Source: an uncultured Phycisphaerales bacterium (GTDB lineage: Bacteria > Planctomycetota > Phycisphaerae > Phycisphaerales > UBA1924). From it: DNA of 64,000 nucleotides. Below, piece by piece: positions 59,160-64,000 of this stretch; the stretch's first letter is position 1; the number at the start of each line of letters is the position of its first letter. The translations under genes were made by a program, and so were the position numbers. Under the pieces are notes generated by a model. It searched no databases, was not told the origin of the DNA, and was given only the letters and a program-made list of their open reading frames with translations. The stretch spans positions 62,001 through 126,000 of the forward strand of contig CALKJW010000005.1 of the NCBI GenBank assembly GCA_937995595.1, in the 5' to 3' direction.

Positions 59160-60395
59160 TCACGCCAGGCGCACAAGTTCGTTCTGCACGTCGCACGTGA
59201 CGACCGGCCCCTTCGCCGGGTCGACGTGCACGTTGATCTCGGACCGGCAGCCGAACCGGCCCTTGATGTACACGCCCGGTTCGATCGTGAAACCGATGCC
59301 CGGCAGCATGCGGCGCGTGTCGTGCGTCTCCAGGTCGTCCAGGTTCATGCCGAGGCCGTGCACCTTCGGACCCGGCGACAGGCTGTGCCCGGTTCGGTGC
59401 AGCACGTGCGCGCCGTAGCCCGCGCCGTCGATCTGCTCGCGCGCGGCCCGGTCCAGTTGCCAGCCCTCGACCTCGCGCCGCGCCGCCCAGCCTTCCTGCG
59501 CAGCACGCAGCGCGGCGTCGCGGGCGCGCTTGACCGTCTCGAACACGCGGAGGTGCTCGTCGCCGGGACGCTCGCCCGCGTAGGCCATCCACGTGATGTC
59601 CGAGAAGATGTGCCGCTCCCCCGGCACCCGCGCCCAGAGGTCGAGCATCACCCACGAACCCGGCACGATCGGCGTCGGGTTGTCGGCGCCCGGCTCGTAG
59701 TGCGGGTCGGCGGTGTGCGCATCGACGGCGACGATCGGCCCGTCGGGCCACTCCAGCCCGTCGGCCTTGAAGCGCGAGCGCACGAACTCCGCCGCTTCGT
59801 GCTCCAGCACGCGCTGCCCGGTGCGCAGGCGCTGCCGCATCATGTTGAACACCGCGTCGCGCGTCGCCCCCACGAGCCGCGAGGCCCGTGCGTGCTCCTC
59901 GACCGCCGCGGCGGACCACACGGCCACGGTCGCCTGCAGCACGTCCGCCGACGACACGACCTCGACGCCGCGCGCCCGGACCGACTCGACCGTTCCGGCG
60001 TCGACGATGCCGACCACCGGCAACTCGCAACGGGGTGAGTACTCCATCGCCACGCGCTTCAGGCCGCTCAGCGCGCGGTCCAGCCACGCTTCGCGCTCGG
60101 GCCAGGTCACGTGCCGTTCGACGCCGATGCCGCGACGCACCGCCGCCTCGAGCGCCAGGTGGTCCAGTTCGTGGCAGAGCACGCGGGGCTCGCCGCGCGC
60201 CGGGATGATCATGGTCACGCGGCGGGTCGTGGAGCCGATCGTTCCCAACAGCGCGCGGAGCGTGGGGTTGCTCCCCCGGAAGTCATGCACCAGCCACGCG
60301 TCAATCCCGCGCGAGGCCATCAGTTCCTGTGCCGCCGCGAACATCCCGCCGTTGGCCTGCATCGGTCGCTCTCCAAGCCCCGCTCCCGGCCCCAT
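59160..60395 (-). CDS. M24 family metallopeptidase, Xaa-Pro aminopeptidase-like
   Basis: 411 aa. A creatinase N-terminal domain (about 20-155) precedes the pita-bread domain with five metal ligands: Asp in VMLDLWARV, Asp in IFSDITWMA, His in VLHRTGHSLS, Glu in FTIEPGVYIKG and Glu in CRSEINVHV. It probably cleaves Xaa-Pro dipeptides. The start ATG 60395 is fixed by TACGCT 6 nt upstream, which is more reliable than the M at position 12 (MQANGG). Cytoplasmic. Convergent with the TIGR03790 gene (3 bp). Confidence 0.9.
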   Translation of the reverse strand: MGPGAGLGERPMQANGGMFAAAQELMASRGIDAWLVHDFRGSNPTLRALLGTIGSTTRRVTMIIPARGEPRVLCHELDHLALEAAVRRGIGVERHVTWPEREAWLDRALSGLKRVAMEYSPRCELPVVGIVDAGTVESVRARGVEVVSSADVLQATVAVWSAAAVEEHARASRLVGATRDAVFNMMRQRLRTGQRVLEHEAAEFVRSRFKADGLEWPDGPIVAVDAHTADPHYEPGADNPTPIVPGSWVMLDLWARVPGERHIFSDITWMAYAGERPGDEHLRVFETVKRARDAALRAAQEGWAARREVEGWQLDRAAREQIDGAGYGAHVLHRTGHSLSPGPKVHGLGMNLDDLETHDTRRMLPGIGFTIEPGVYIKGRFGCRSEINVHVDPAKGPVVTCDVQNELVRLA

Positions 60396-60401
60396 GGCCC
60401 C

Positions 60402-60407
60402 AGCGTA
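60402..60407 (-). promoter_or_regulatory. -10-like TACGCT, leaderless start of the M24 peptidase
   Basis: On the minus strand TACGCT ends 6 nt before ATG 60395, with no ribosome binding site between. Confidence 0.45.
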
Positions 60408-60472
60408 GACCGGGGCGTGCCCGTTGCGCGCGGTTGAATCCCGCGCTCGGAGCGTGCGAACACGATCGGGGA

Positions 60473-60478
60473 TACACT
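60473..60478 (+). promoter_or_regulatory. -10-like TACACT for the cobalamin-sensor gene
   Basis: TACACT ends 24 nt before ATG 60503 (an in-frame GTG follows it directly at 60479). A short leader without ribosome binding site would result. Confidence 0.4.
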
Positions 60479-60502
60479 GTGTCGCACCCGAACGAACACC
60501 GC

Positions 60503-61624
60503 ATGATTGCCAACGGCGAGATGGTGGCCAACCTGATCAACGCCAGTGCGAGCGGCATCGCCGCTCTCACGGCCGAGGCGCTCGAGAAGCGTCGTGCCGG
60601 GTTGGTACAGCGCTACGGGTCCGCCGCGACCCGTGCCTGGCGCGACTGCGTGTCGTCGCGTCTGCCCTACCTGGTCGCGGCGGTGAACACGGCGTGCCCG
60701 AGGGTCTTTGTCGAACAGGCGCGATGGGCGTACACGGCCTATGCCAGCCGCGGCGGAGACGCTGCCGCGGCGGACTTCCTCGTGTCGCTCGAGTGTCTGC
60801 GGGACGTGGTCCGTTCCGAGTTGCCGGCCGACGCGGGCCGGCTCGCGGCGTCGTACGTCGATCACGCGATCGACTCGCTCCGCATCGACCCGCCGACGCC
60901 CGTCGCACCGATCGACGCCGGCACGCGGTTCGGGCGTCTGAGCAGCGCGTACCTCGCGGCTGTGCTGTGCGGAGACCGGCGCCGCGCCTTGCAGATCATC
61001 CTCGACGCGGCCAACGGCGCCGACGGCCTGCCGGCGGTGCCGGTGCGCAACCTGTACCTGGACGTGCTGCTCCCGGCGCAGTTCGAACTGGGCCGGATGT
61101 GGCACCTCAACGAGGCGACCGTCGCCGAGGAGCACCTGGTCACGGCGACGACGCAGTTGGTCCTGTCGCAGTTGTACACGATGCTCCCGATGGGTCCACG
61201 CAACGGTCTGACGGCCGTCGCGGCGTCGGTCGAGGGCAACGCGCACGACGTCGGCGTGCGCGTGCTGGCGGACCTGCTGGAGGCCGACGGGTGGAGCGTG
61301 GTGTACCTCGGGGCGAGCGTGCCGGGCGCCGAACTGGCCCAGGCGGTCGAGATGTTCCGGGCCGATCTGGTGGCGGTCTCCGCCGGGCTGGGTTGCCAGT
61401 TGCCGGCCGTCACGCAGACCATCGAGTGTCTCCGGTCCGGCGGCGAGTGCGGACGGAACGTGCGAATCCTGTTGGGCGGGGCGGGCTTTGCCGGCACGGA
61501 CGACGCGCAGCCCGCGCCGCTCTGGAGGCGGCTGGGGGCCGATGGCTACGCCTCGAGCATCGACGAAGGGCTGCGCGTCGCGGCCCAACTCTGCGGGGCC
61601 AGAGGAACAACGGGCCGCGACTGA
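60503..61624 (+). CDS. Cobalamin-binding sensor-like protein with CarH-type W-x9-EH motif
   Basis: 373 aa from ATG 60503. The N-terminal 150 residues are helical and belong to no DNA-binding family that I recognise. A B12 cap domain (about 155-225) follows, with MWHLNEATVAEEH: Trp200, His201 and Glu210-His211, which match the W-x9-EH signature of CarH/LitR photoreceptors. The Rossmann-like B12 domain has the lower-ligand loop GNAHDVG with His248 (DxHxxG with Asn instead of Asp). It therefore probably binds adenosyl- or methylcobalamin base-off, His-on. There is no MerR domain, unlike CarH, so the output is not direct DNA binding by a known fold. It diverges from the M24 gene. Confidence 0.85.
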   Translation: MIANGEMVANLINASASGIAALTAEALEKRRAGLVQRYGSAATRAWRDCVSSRLPYLVAAVNTACPRVFVEQARWAYTAYASRGGDAAAADFLVSLECLRDVVRSELPADAGRLAASYVDHAIDSLRIDPPTPVAPIDAGTRFGRLSSAYLAAVLCGDRRRALQIILDAANGADGLPAVPVRNLYLDVLLPAQFELGRMWHLNEATVAEEHLVTATTQLVLSQLYTMLPMGPRNGLTAVAASVEGNAHDVGVRVLADLLEADGWSVVYLGASVPGAELAQAVEMFRADLVAVSAGLGCQLPAVTQTIECLRSGGECGRNVRILLGGAGFAGTDDAQPAPLWRRLGADGYASSIDEGLRVAAQLCGARGTTGRD

Positions 61625-61633
61625 TCGCGGCCC
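61612..61633 (+). terminator. Hairpin over the stop codon of the cobalamin-sensor gene
   Basis: GGGCCGCG (61612-61619) pairs with CGCGGCCC (61626-61633) around ACTGAT; the TGA stop lies in the loop. The following sequence ends in GGGGGTTTG. It may also terminate the convergent PEP-CTERM gene. Confidence 0.55.
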
Positions 61634-61661
61634 GCTGGGGGTTTGAACTGGAAACTTTGTT

Positions 61662-62255
61662 TCAGCGCCGACGGCGGCAGGCGGCCAGACCGCCCAAGCC
61701 GAGGATCGCAGCCGCGCCGGGCGCGGGGATGATCGTGGCCGAGGACGTGAATGACGCGGTGGCCTGGTAGCCGGTGGGCGTCGAAACAGGGTTGGCGAAA
61801 CTGAAGGCGAAGGCTTCGTCGGCGAGAATCGCGCCGCCGAGCAGGGGGCCGGAGAAGGTGACGTTGTTCCCCTGGAACTCGCTGGCGCCGAAGCCGAACG
61901 AACTGGTCAGCAGGCCGCCGTCGAAGGTGATCGTGAGTTGCAGCACGTTCGAGCTGTCATAGAAGTCGATCTGGCCGGGGCCGAGCGTCGCGAACGGCAA
62001 CGGCGTGAGCAGCGCCACCGCCGTGATCGTGAACGTCGCGTTGGGAACGTCCGGTGCGGCCAAGCCCGGCGTTTCGAGCAGCAGGCCCGAACCGGACCAC
62101 CCGCCGGTCAGTTGGTTCGTGACAGTGTTCACGTCGAACAGCGGGGTCGCAGGTCCCATCGAGGGGTCGGCGAAGGTCACGATCGTCGCGCCTTGGGCGG
62201 CGCCGGCGAGGGCAACCAGAGAGGTCAGAGCGGCAGCGGCAAACACACGTGCCAT
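61662..62255 (-). CDS. PEP-CTERM-like exported protein
   Basis: 197 aa with signal peptide (about 1-22). A beta-rich domain with the Ser/Thr-rich end leads to a short C-terminal sorting signal: PAPGAAAILGLGG followed by LAACRRRR, i.e. P-x-P/PGA, hydrophobic helix, Arg cluster. This is the Phycisphaerales version of the PEP-CTERM signal processed by exosortase-like enzymes. The exosortase gene is not in the window. GGAG lies about 8 nt before ATG 62255. No catalytic motif; possible surface or matrix protein. Confidence 0.85.
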   Translation of the reverse strand: MARVFAAAALTSLVALAGAAQGATIVTFADPSMGPATPLFDVNTVTNQLTGGWSGSGLLLETPGLAAPDVPNATFTITAVALLTPLPFATLGPGQIDFYDSSNVLQLTITFDGGLLTSSFGFGASEFQGNNVTFSGPLLGGAILADEAFAFSFANPVSTPTGYQATASFTSSATIIPAPGAAAILGLGGLAACRRRR

Positions 62256-62409: not shown

Positions 62410-63273
62410 TCATGGGAACACGCGCGGCGGGCCGTCGGGCTGGTAATCCAGATCGTCCCACCGGGAGACCGTGGTGATCTCACGCGCCGGCACAAGAACG
62501 GCGTGACCATCCAGAAAGACGGCGTTGGCCCCGCGGCCGTGCCGGCGAGGGGCGACCCGCTGCGATCCCTGCGCGGTTGAAGAGCCGCCGGTCACGTTGG
62601 TCGCGTGGTGCATGTCGTAGGCCACGGCCACCGACCAGTTGGTCGCGCCGGGGCCGTACCAGCCGTTGGCGTGGATCTCGGCGGGGTCGTCGGTGAAGCA
62701 CGACAGGTACAGCGTGTCGTGGGGACGCTGGTACTTGCTCAGTTTCGTGGGGCGTTTGGCGAAGTCGTTGATGACGTTCGGCGCCCGGAACGACAAGCCG
62801 TTGTTCACGTAGTGAATGTTGTGCCGGTCCCGGCGCCGTGCCGGGTCGCGGTAGTACAAGGCGTGCATGTACAGGTCGCCGATGCCGCCGGTCATGTCCA
62901 CCTGCGGGTCAACAATACCGACCTTGTCGTCCATGAACGGGCGAAGGACGTATGCCCAAGGCGGGTAGTACATCTGCAGTGGGGTCTGCGGCACGCGGGG
63001 CTCCGAGAAACCGCTCTCGCGCGGCGTGAACTCCTTGTACGTGTCCGCGTAGAGCATCAGGGCCGCGCCGATCTGACGCTGGTTGGAGAGGCAGACCGCC
63101 GCGTGGGCGGCCCGGCGCGCGTCGCGCAGCGCGGGCAGCAGCAGGCCGACCAGCAGCGCGATCAGTGCGATGACGACCAGCACCTCGATGAGCGTGAAGC
63201 CCGCTCGGGGACGTGCCCCGCGCCGTCGCTGGTTGGAACCCTGCGCCCGGTCCACGGTTTGAGCATACACCAT
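62410..63273 (-). CDS. Prepilin-type protein with type IV N-terminal methylation motif
   Basis: 287 aa. The prepilin peptidase site is [21 protein letters not shown] with Gly25|Phe26 and Glu30, preceded by a basic leader. The rest is a pseudopilin head with a C-terminal [15 protein letters not shown], the H-X9-DG-like end of planctomycete DUF1559-type proteins. These belong to type II secretion or type IV pili-like systems but occur in many orphan copies. No secretion genes are nearby. A TAGGTT (minus strand, about 12 nt before the ATG) may be its -10. Confidence 0.88.
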
Positions 63274-63317
63274 GTTCGGCCTCGCAACCTACAGTTTCGG
63301 ACCTTCGAGAGGTGTCC

Positions 63318-63725
63318 GTGCAGCAGCAGACCCAGACGGCGTGCAGAGGTTCGGAACTGGCCACCCGGGGCATCCGCGTGCGGGTGACGCCGTCGTTCGT
63401 GCGCGAGCAATCGGACCCTGAACAGAGCCGCTTTGTCTTTGCCTATCGCGTGCGGATCCACAACGAATCGCCGCGGCAGGTGCAACTGCTCTCGCGTGAA
63501 TGGCGGATCGTCGACGCCGACGGCGAGTGCAACATCGTCCGCGGCGAGGGCGTGGTCGGCCAGCAGCCGGTGATCCTGCCGGGACAGTCGTTCGAGTACT
63601 CCAGTTTCTGCCCGCTGATCACGTCGTGGGGCACGATGGAGGGGCGTTACACGTTCCGCGCCGAGGACGGCGAAGAGTTCGAGGTGCCGATCGCCCGCTT
63701 CTATCTGGTCGCGCCGCCGCTCTGA
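63318..63725 (+). CDS. apaG: ApaG family protein
   Basis: 135 aa from GTG 63318, with GAGAGG upstream. The fibronectin-III-like ApaG fold is seen: TRGIRVRVTPSFV, RFVFAYRVRIHNESPRQVQLLSREWRIVDADG, GVVGQQPVILPGQSFEYSSFCPLITSWGTMEG, each split here. ApaG is linked to Co/Mg resistance and to Ap4A in E. coli, but no biochemical activity is certain. It diverges from the prepilin gene and precedes the SRPBCC gene by 55 bp. Confidence 0.9.
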   Translation: MQQQTQTACRGSELATRGIRVRVTPSFVREQSDPEQSRFVFAYRVRIHNESPRQVQLLSREWRIVDADGECNIVRGEGVVGQQPVILPGQSFEYSSFCPLITSWGTMEGRYTFRAEDGEEFEVPIARFYLVAPPL

Positions 63726-63780
63726 CGTCCGGCTCGGCGGGCCGTGAATCCCCGCGGTCGGTCGTGTCGAACACGTCGCC

Positions 63781-64000
63781 GTGAAGGTGTTCGAACTCCA
63801 CACCGAGGTCCGTGTTCCCGGCTCGCTCGAAGCGGTGTTCCCGTTCTTCGCCGACGCGGGGAACCTCGAACTGCTCACGCCGCCGTGGCTCAGTTTCCGC
63901 ATCCTCACCCCGCGGCCGATCGTCATGCGCGTCGGCGCGCTCATCGACTACCGCATCAGCCTGCGCGGCCTGCCGATGCGGTGGCGGAGCGAGATCACCG
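63781..64000 (+). CDS. SRPBCC family protein (3' end outside window)
   Basis: 73 residues are visible from GTG 63781: [36 protein letters not shown] and [18 protein letters not shown], which match the SRPBCC/polyketide-cyclase-like family with the sequence TPPWLxFRIL. Such domains bind hydrophobic ligands; function is unknown. No good ribosome binding site is seen, so the start is less sure. The gene runs off the window. Confidence 0.8.

Follow-up and report, generated by a model that had tools for sequence, protein, structure and literature searches.

Photocobilins join a cobalamin-binding domain to a biliverdin-type globin. They were characterised in 2024, and their authors call the function of the standalone members 'less clear' (PMC10979010). 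The dark form of SasPcob with adenosylcobalamin (AdoCbl) is dimeric; light removes the adenosine, rearranges the Trp/Glu-His pocket and yields a monomer. Members that stand alone can influence other proteins through contact, and predicted photocobilins group by an N- or C-terminal cobalamin domain (PMC10979010). Here we describe a photocobilin gene in a 64,000-nucleotide stretch of DNA, "the window", taken from contig CALKJW010000005.1 (positions 62,001 to 126,000) of an uncultured Phycisphaerales bacterium whose genome assembly comprises 3.1 Mb in 55 contigs. The protein, of 373 residues, starts with the globin, the opposite of the domain order in the two characterised photocobilins. Because both orders are already counted in PMC10979010, this arrangement is not new in itself, and the kind is known from photocobilins, photoglobins and BBAG-2 globins. 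What the analysis adds is a concrete candidate output for the family: its recurrent gene neighbour, together with a promoter-like motif in common, suggests a pair formed by an extracytoplasmic function (ECF) sigma factor and an RskA-type anti-sigma factor.

A cobalamin domain with the light-responsive signature

The open reading frame (ORF) runs on the + strand from an ATG at 60,503 to the end of its stop codon at 61,624, where an earlier sequence-only reading had placed it. It is a real gene, since the nearest named relative, in a Phycisphaeraceae metagenome-assembled genome (locus L004), is an orthologue with 68% identity, nonsynonymous divergence (dN) is 0.23 against a synonymous divergence (dS) of 0.94, and third codon positions hold 182 of the 320 nucleotide differences between the two. 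The AlphaFold2 model of the whole protein (373 aa) has a predicted local distance difference test score (pLDDT) of 94.4 and a predicted template modelling score (pTM) of 0.90. For comparison, 59 planctomycete loci with an open frame across both domains were collected from 57 genomes, two of which gave two loci each (G704, L093 and L103; G439, L094 and L107); 22 lie in the window's order, including L004, and 37 outside it.

Residues 141–366 (60,923–61,600, +) form the cobalamin-binding domain, a helical bundle and a Rossmann fold, as seen by Pfam and by structure matching. Pfam places B12-binding_2 at residues 149–224 (E 2.5e-9) and B12-binding at residues 237–332 (E 7.8e-17), both above cut-off, and this part of the model superposes on residues 7–214 of SasPcob (8j2w) with a Z score of 25.1 and a root mean square deviation (rmsd) of 2.2 over 208 residues. 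In a profile search of the PDB, photocobilins stand at the top with 157 bits, versus 80 bits for TtCarH.

The published signature of light-responsive cobalamin proteins consists of GxxW, EH, GxxH and GxxxP (PMC11796333), and it is complete in the window. Gly197 and Trp200, with His201 directly after the Trp, span 61,091–61,105 (+), Glu210-His211 lies at 61,130–61,135 (+), Gly245-Asn-Ala-His248 at 61,235–61,246 (+) and Gly270xxxPro274 at 61,310–61,324 (+). Across the 59-member alignment, Gly197, Trp200, Glu210, His248 and Gly270 are each present in 59/59, with Pro274 in 58, His211 in 57, Gly245 in 52 and His201 in 37; this near-invariance argues that the signature is not a product of chance. 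In CarH the Trp at the Trp200 position stacks on the adenosyl group (PMC11796333), the EH motif belongs to the dark-state dimer interface (PMC10979010), and from the sequence and alignment His248 is the predicted lower axial ligand. His201 occupies the position of TtCarH His132, where CtMerR has Arg, SasPcob Gln and AbDPcob Tyr (PMC11796333). The sequence-only reading had named W200, H201, E210, H211 and H248 as a CarH-like photoreceptor motif, with His201 at the upper-ligand position of CarH, in a protein without a DNA-binding domain; all of this holds, and a Pfam scan of the 373 residues lists no helix-turn-helix or MerR domain. Light sensing by the window protein is, as a prediction from sequence, well supported.

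Within the class, 33 of 397 genomes give a match at E <=1.3e-36 that spans all or most of both domains; the next match listed (E 1.7e-26) covers the cobalamin domain only. The 33 are a lower bound, as G039 (E 7.5e-22 in this class search), which matches over both domains with profile A1, was scored negative. In the phylum, profile A1 finds 50 of 392 genomes at E <=1e-40, with almost full model coverage in 36. Alignment A1 excludes L025 (interrupted frame) and L027 (partial). Phylum matches outside the collection are G569 and G039, both full-length, and fragments in G429, G451, G464, G494, G445, G498 and G430. The copy in G325 (L025/L115, contig C97) has an interrupted frame, through assembly error or decay, and as L115 it failed as a family ORF. 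Two photocobilin ORFs, L087 6756–9437 (−) and L088 6219–8297 (−), carry N-terminal extensions of 340–540 residues with no Pfam match; these are probably spurious open frame, since both ORFs run over ECF and fasciclin genes of the opposite strand.

The N-terminal globin and its bilin pocket

Residues 1–133 (60,503–60,901, +), which the sequence-only reading had described as a helical region of unknown type, form a phycobilisome-type bilin-binding globin domain. Profile A2, built on residues 1–134 from 29 homologues, matches the C-terminal biliverdin globin of SasPcob at E 4.7e-9, with weaker matches to AbPcob (0.036), allophycocyanins (0.055, 0.44 and 0.85) and a single designed helical protein (0.062). 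In Pfam, the window N-terminus scores best against Phycobilisome, under cut-off (E 0.0016); of the 29 N-terminal sequences, 3 match this model (best E 1.9e-4). With the domain order reversed, the SasPcob globin could not be recovered by a full-length structure search, and the N-terminal part was therefore modelled and searched separately (AlphaFold2 pLDDT 96.1, pTM 0.90). Its model matches 8uhe with Z 16.8 and SasPcob 8j2x with Z 16.4, residues 1–133 lying on chain positions 225–346 (rmsd 2.6 over 122 residues). Structural matches have Z scores of 14–17 overall; the 50 listed are phycobiliproteins, SasPcob and bilin fluorescent proteins such as smURFP (8j98 and 8u0f being classed with these by title), and no RsbR-type globin is among them. 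Foldseek E-values are modest for such a small helical domain (best 8.6e-3), which leaves the sequence profile as the better evidence for a globin. Globin scores are low, at 25–34 bits, in L061 and L084–L086.

Residue equivalences at the bilin pocket were taken from profile alignments, the numbers in the SasPcob paper being chain position + 6 (checked on Trp61, Glu71 and His72). In SasPcob, Asp270 is the key biliverdin contact and Trp296 touches both biliverdin and the corrin (PMC10979010). Trp75 (60,725–60,727, +) corresponds to Trp296 and is present in 59/59 members, and Arg83 (60,749–60,751, +), kept in 52/59, aligns with AbPcob Arg297, a modelled biliverdin contact. Trp46 (60,638–60,640, +), a Trp in 44/59, lies three residues ahead of the contact position. 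That position, Cys49 in the window protein (60,647–60,649, +), is Asp270 in SasPcob and His in AbPcob (PMC10979010). Across the 59 members it holds H in 18, D in 12, E in 11, N, Q, A and S in 3 each, C in 2 (the window and L004 only), V in 2, and F and T in 1 each. AbDPcob, an accepted photocobilin, is likewise without Asp at this contact (PMC10979010). Judged from these residues, the family could plausibly bind biliverdin; for the window protein this is uncertain. The window's genome encodes a haem oxygenase (C2:97269–97838, E 4.2e-23) and a cobalamin adenosyltransferase. Within the class, a PF01126 haem oxygenase is found in 16 of the 33 genomes with a photocobilin versus 70 of the 364 others (p 5e-4).

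ECF and RskA genes beside relatives, and a promoter-like motif

Gene neighbourhoods, whose survey the sequence-only reading had proposed, were compared across the 59 loci, and outside the window's order they link the photocobilin gene to ECF system genes. An ECF sigma gene lies <=3 kb from the photocobilin gene in 23 of these 37 loci, and none lies at 3–7.5 kb in the 37 (~211 kb searched). An RskA anti-sigma gene is nearby in 17 and a fasciclin gene in 15. In ten loci (L041, L042, L045, L046, L050, L054, L104, L106, L113 and L114) the RskA gene ends 0–76 bp upstream of the photocobilin gene on the same strand, overlaps of called ORFs being taken as 0; these appear to be ECF-RskA-photocobilin operons. 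Around some RskA-linked loci there are also DUF4397, PQQ-repeat, lipocalin, NmrA/DUF2867 and SRPBCC genes, and within the window's order an SRPBCC gene lies <=3 kb from the photocobilin gene in 4 of 22 loci. Photolyase-type genes occur 3–7 kb away in L045, L046 and L050 (by Pfam), in L114 and, by a weaker match, in L113. In L084–L086, from one planctomycete family, the photocobilin is fused to a HisKA-HATPase-receiver module (about 800 aa). Wide neighbourhoods were available for 29 of the 32 other class genomes with a photocobilin, G392, G306 and G148 being excluded.

The window's genome has its own copy of this pair. The ECF orthologue on contig C2 has 56% identity (E 1.4e-55; next ECF 4.4e-24) and is followed by a Pfam-supported RskA gene (E 2.4e-43), the pair being unlinked to the photocobilin gene. 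For this ECF factor (E 3.5e-33) and for the L050 copy (6.5e-34) NCBIfam SigK is the second-best model, both under cut-off. In mycobacteria, SigK-RskA governs fasciclin-domain proteins; light modestly induces two of their genes in M. kansasii, both preceded by putative SigK sites (PMC9861118). Across the class, RskA is present in 23 of the 33 genomes with a photocobilin versus 43 of the 364 without. On contig C7 of the window's genome, a second B12-fold protein (Pfam B12-binding) adjoins another ECF sigma gene (L063 7639–8529 and 8651–9385); by eye it is degenerate, with no Trp/EH motif and no axial His seen.

A dyad was sought in 14 stretches preceding ECF and fasciclin genes at seven loci outside the order, some of them the two strands of one intergenic region. 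The top dyad, GAAT-N18-CGA, occurs in 11 of the 14 and is part of GAATCC-N16-CGAA. Widened to <=2 mismatches, the search matched 72 of 160 stretches, photocobilin ones included, versus 6 of 160 read backwards. A genome-wide count, whose read-backwards control differs in dinucleotides, is not evidence, and a position test was used instead. The controls for that test were 253 other genes drawn from the loci of the order, with three called SRPBCC genes excluded. Of the two forms fixed beforehand, GAAT-N18-CGA stands upstream of 6 of the 22 photocobilin genes of the order versus 4 of 253 controls (p 2e-5), and exact GAATCCA-N13..15-CGAA upstream of 1 of 22 versus 0 of 253 (p 0.08). The form GAATCC-N15/16-CGAA was settled only after the widened search had given its matches, and the N15 spacer was allowed afterwards. 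Exact copies precede 8 of the 22 genes, the window's included, versus 1 of 253 controls (Fisher 4e-9; shuffle mean 0.04), and with <=1 mismatch the counts are 12 of 22 versus 5 of 253 (Fisher 1e-11; shuffle mean 0.58), these Fisher values coming from non-independent loci and a form partly chosen post hoc. The single exact control match is an SRPBCC site viewed through a spurious ORF. N15 copies alone precede 4 of the 22 genes, the window's among them, versus 0 of 253 controls.

In the window, the ECF-type promoter-like motif GAATCC-N15-CGAA lies at 60,436–60,460 (+), 67 bp ahead of the photocobilin ATG, its spacer one base under that usual at ECF and fasciclin genes; in L004 a copy with one mismatch sits at −69. 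A second copy, GAATCC-N16-CGAA at 63,746–63,771 (+), stands ahead of an SRPBCC (polyketide cyclase-like) gene (63,781–64,000, +; 163 aa, GTG start) that extends beyond the window end and is complete in L140. These are the only copies of GAATCC-N15/16-CGAA in the window, where 0.23 are expected; two copies arose in 2 of 100 shuffles. A scan of 60,300–61,800 for sigma-70 promoters and terminators found none. Elsewhere in the window's genome, exact copies precede fasciclin, trypsin/PDZ protease, Zn_peptidase_2, SOUL and aldehyde dehydrogenase genes, and four more (L134, L135, L136 and L139) precede ORFs that look spurious by eye. The genome's own ECF gene and photolyase have one-mismatch copies, a level that 5 of 253 controls reach by chance.

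Other genes nearby were noted in passing. The SOUL haem-binding and aldehyde dehydrogenase genes (L133 1617–2402 and L138 1682–3172), each with an exact GAATCC-N16-CGAA upstream, are possible further regulon members. The second motif copy and the SRPBCC gene follow directly on an ApaG-domain gene (63,213–63,725, +). A conserved gene on the photocobilin strand, by eye a GH15-type-like glycoside hydrolase, ends just before the photocobilin gene or overlaps it in a single family of the order (L040, L043, L047, L048, L049, L057 and L060). The divergent neighbour in the window is an M24 metallopeptidase gene (59,160–60,395, −; Pfam). The divergent pair proposed by the sequence-only reading is real, and its linkage goes no further than L004: a homologue (BLASTP E <=1e-8) is nearby in 2 of 59 loci, the window and L004, and the peptidase was rejected as a functional partner.

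Proposed signalling, its rivals and known systems

The explanation we favour, with a probability of about 0.65 for the whole, is that this globin-first photocobilin signals via RskA and the ECF factor to photoprotective genes. The protein would be a soluble light receptor, loaded in the dark with AdoCbl bound base-off through His248. The adenosyl group would be held by Trp200 and Glu210-His211, giving an associated dark state; light would cleave the Co–C bond and change the association state, with His201 as a possible second ligand after light in a CarH-like bis-His state. The N-terminal globin is predicted to pack on the cobalamin domain and, if biliverdin-bound, would extend light sensing to red wavelengths. 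As there is no DNA-binding domain, signalling would proceed by protein contact. The likeliest target is an RskA-type anti-sigma factor, suggested as partner by the recurrent operon outside the window's order. If the contact has the sign we expect, light would free the ECF sigma factor, which may read the promoter-like motif and so transcribe photolyase, SRPBCC and fasciclin genes together with the receptor gene itself. A broader version, offered tentatively and with the odds against it, would make globin-first photocobilins of Planctomycetota light-driven RskA antagonists that switch a SigK-like ECF photoprotection regulon that includes the receptor gene. The window's lineage would have seen this operon break up, with the GAATCC-N15/16-CGAA promoter keeping the regulon together.

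Several observations weigh against this explanation. Neither an ECF nor an RskA gene lies <=3 kb from the photocobilin gene in any of the 22 loci of the window's order, so that the proposed neighbourhood survey speaks for the linkage outside the order and not inside it, and coupling within the order rests on the motif. A promoter, moreover, tells who transcribes a gene and not what its product binds. The window gene matches neither of the forms fixed beforehand, its own copy being of the N15 type admitted post hoc. Outside the order the motif precedes 1 of 37 photocobilin genes exactly and 5 of 37 with <=1 mismatch (shuffle mean 0.79); such scarcity is expected where an operon is transcribed from the ECF gene's promoter, which covers some of the loci only. 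The loci are phylogenetically non-independent, L053/L055 and L040/L047 being same-genus pairs. A photolyase gene lies <=3 kb away in 1 of the 37 loci outside the order, with no excess near the photocobilin gene; given this and the distance of 3–7 kb, photolyase is a lead and not a test. In the cobalamin domain, the published E/DxH motif (PMC10979010) reads Asn246-Ala-His248, with the axial His kept and the acidic residue replaced, Asn at position 246 being frequent in the relatives, and in the globin Cys49 stands where SasPcob has its biliverdin-holding Asp. Three lines of support were set aside. A genome-wide motif count separates nothing, as every one of the order's 111 genomes has copies. 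For RskA, co-occurrence inside the window's family, 8 of 8 versus 25 of 37, is not significant (p 0.09). The class-level excess of haem oxygenase vanishes within that family (6 of 8 with a photocobilin versus 28 of 37 others), looks like a lineage effect and was rejected as proof of biliverdin use.

The strongest competitor, to which we give nearly an even chance, concerns the chromophore: the protein may be a cobalamin-only green-light sensor whose globin has lost biliverdin and now has a structural role or one in protein contact, an idea put forward for the AbDPcob fusion. Cys49 at a position that varies across the 59 members fits this, as do a biliverdin occupancy of about 20% in AbDPcob, which has His at the contact (PMC10979010), and the presence of a PF01126 haem oxygenase in just 16 of the 33 photocobilin-bearing class genomes; the conservation of Trp75 and Arg83 and the haem oxygenase of the window's own genome argue for a working bilin pocket instead. 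Somewhat less probable, yet a real alternative, is a light receptor whose partner is not ECF/RskA at all and that is at most transcribed by the ECF factor, with a different target, for example a kinase, some enzyme, or the product of the M24 or SRPBCC gene. The empty neighbourhoods of the window's order point this way, and so do the three relatives fused to a histidine kinase-receiver module and the finding that standalone photocobilins can alter a diguanylate cyclase by contact (PMC10979010). Against it stand the ten loci with RskA immediately upstream; the window protein, too, has no fused kinase, and none is among the four flanking proteins scanned.

Readings that dispense with light altogether fare worse. 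CarH-type proteins also report the presence of AdoCbl, which speaks for a sensor of cobalamin level. Such a sensor is improbable here, given the conserved light signature in full, the photolyase-type genes in the neighbourhoods of five relatives and the lack of any cobalamin-synthesis gene among 20 neighbours scanned with Pfam. Least probable by far is a corrinoid protein of a methyltransferase system of the MtaC/MtbC type. The NCBIfam models for MtgC (E 6.3e-13) and MtbC (9.3e-12) do score like the CarH model (1.2e-12), all far under cut-off, but the 48.7 bits compare with a curated MtgC cut-off of 370, the family conserves Trp200 and Glu210-His211, and the chain also carries a bilin-globin. 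No methyltransferase is among the 20 Pfam-scanned neighbours, and no other search for one was made.

If signalling through RskA and the ECF factor is true, B12 photochemistry would be coupled to transcription otherwise than by the DNA-binding CarH or by cyclase fusions, planctomycetes would have a light-response pathway, and a signal would be suggested for SigK/RskA-type systems, whose stimuli are called obscure in PMC9861118. A photocobilin tie to ECF/RskA was not found in the open-access literature searched, supplements and the primary photoglobin paper being excluded. The new output expected by the sequence-only reading thus gains substance from the ECF/RskA neighbours or kinase fusion outside the order and from the ECF-like promoter motif, for a kind of protein, the photocobilin, that is already known.

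Among known systems, SasPcob of Saccharothrix syringae (PDB 8J2W, 8J2X; PMC10979010) is likewise standalone and has both domains, the Trp, the EH motif and the axial His. Its cobalamin domain comes first, whereas the globin is first in the window protein, and Asp270, the Gln after Trp and the Glu of ExH are replaced by Cys49, His201 and Asn246. The partners predicted for SasPcob are of the STAS/SpoIIE type (PMC10979010), while the window's relatives are linked to ECF/RskA. AbDPcob, a photocobilin-diguanylate cyclase from Acidimicrobiaceae (PDB 8J2Y), shares the two sensory domains and a non-Asp contact; unlike the window protein, it has a fused GGDEF enzyme and its cobalamin domain ahead of the globin. 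Photoglobins and BBAG-2 bilin globins are biliverdin-type globins without the CXRD attachment cysteine and are associated with B12 proteins, as here, but the BBAG-2 globins are separate proteins beside those B12 proteins, where the window has one chain (PMC10151467). Mycobacterial SigK-RskA resembles the loci of the window's relatives in its SigK-like ECF factor, RskA-type anti-sigma factor and fasciclin genes, with the difference that the text of PMC9861118 has no 'B12' and the passages cited here name no photocobilin. CarH and LitR (PDB 5C8D, 8C31) have in common with the window protein the cobalamin domain, W-H, EH and axial His; they carry a MerR DNA-binding domain, and the window protein a bilin-globin instead. 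In LitR-LitS and CarQ-CarR, light reaches an ECF sigma factor through a B12 repressor with a DNA-binding domain or through a membrane anti-sigma factor. The window protein differs from both as a B12/bilin receptor without a DNA-binding domain, one whose relatives adjoin RskA.

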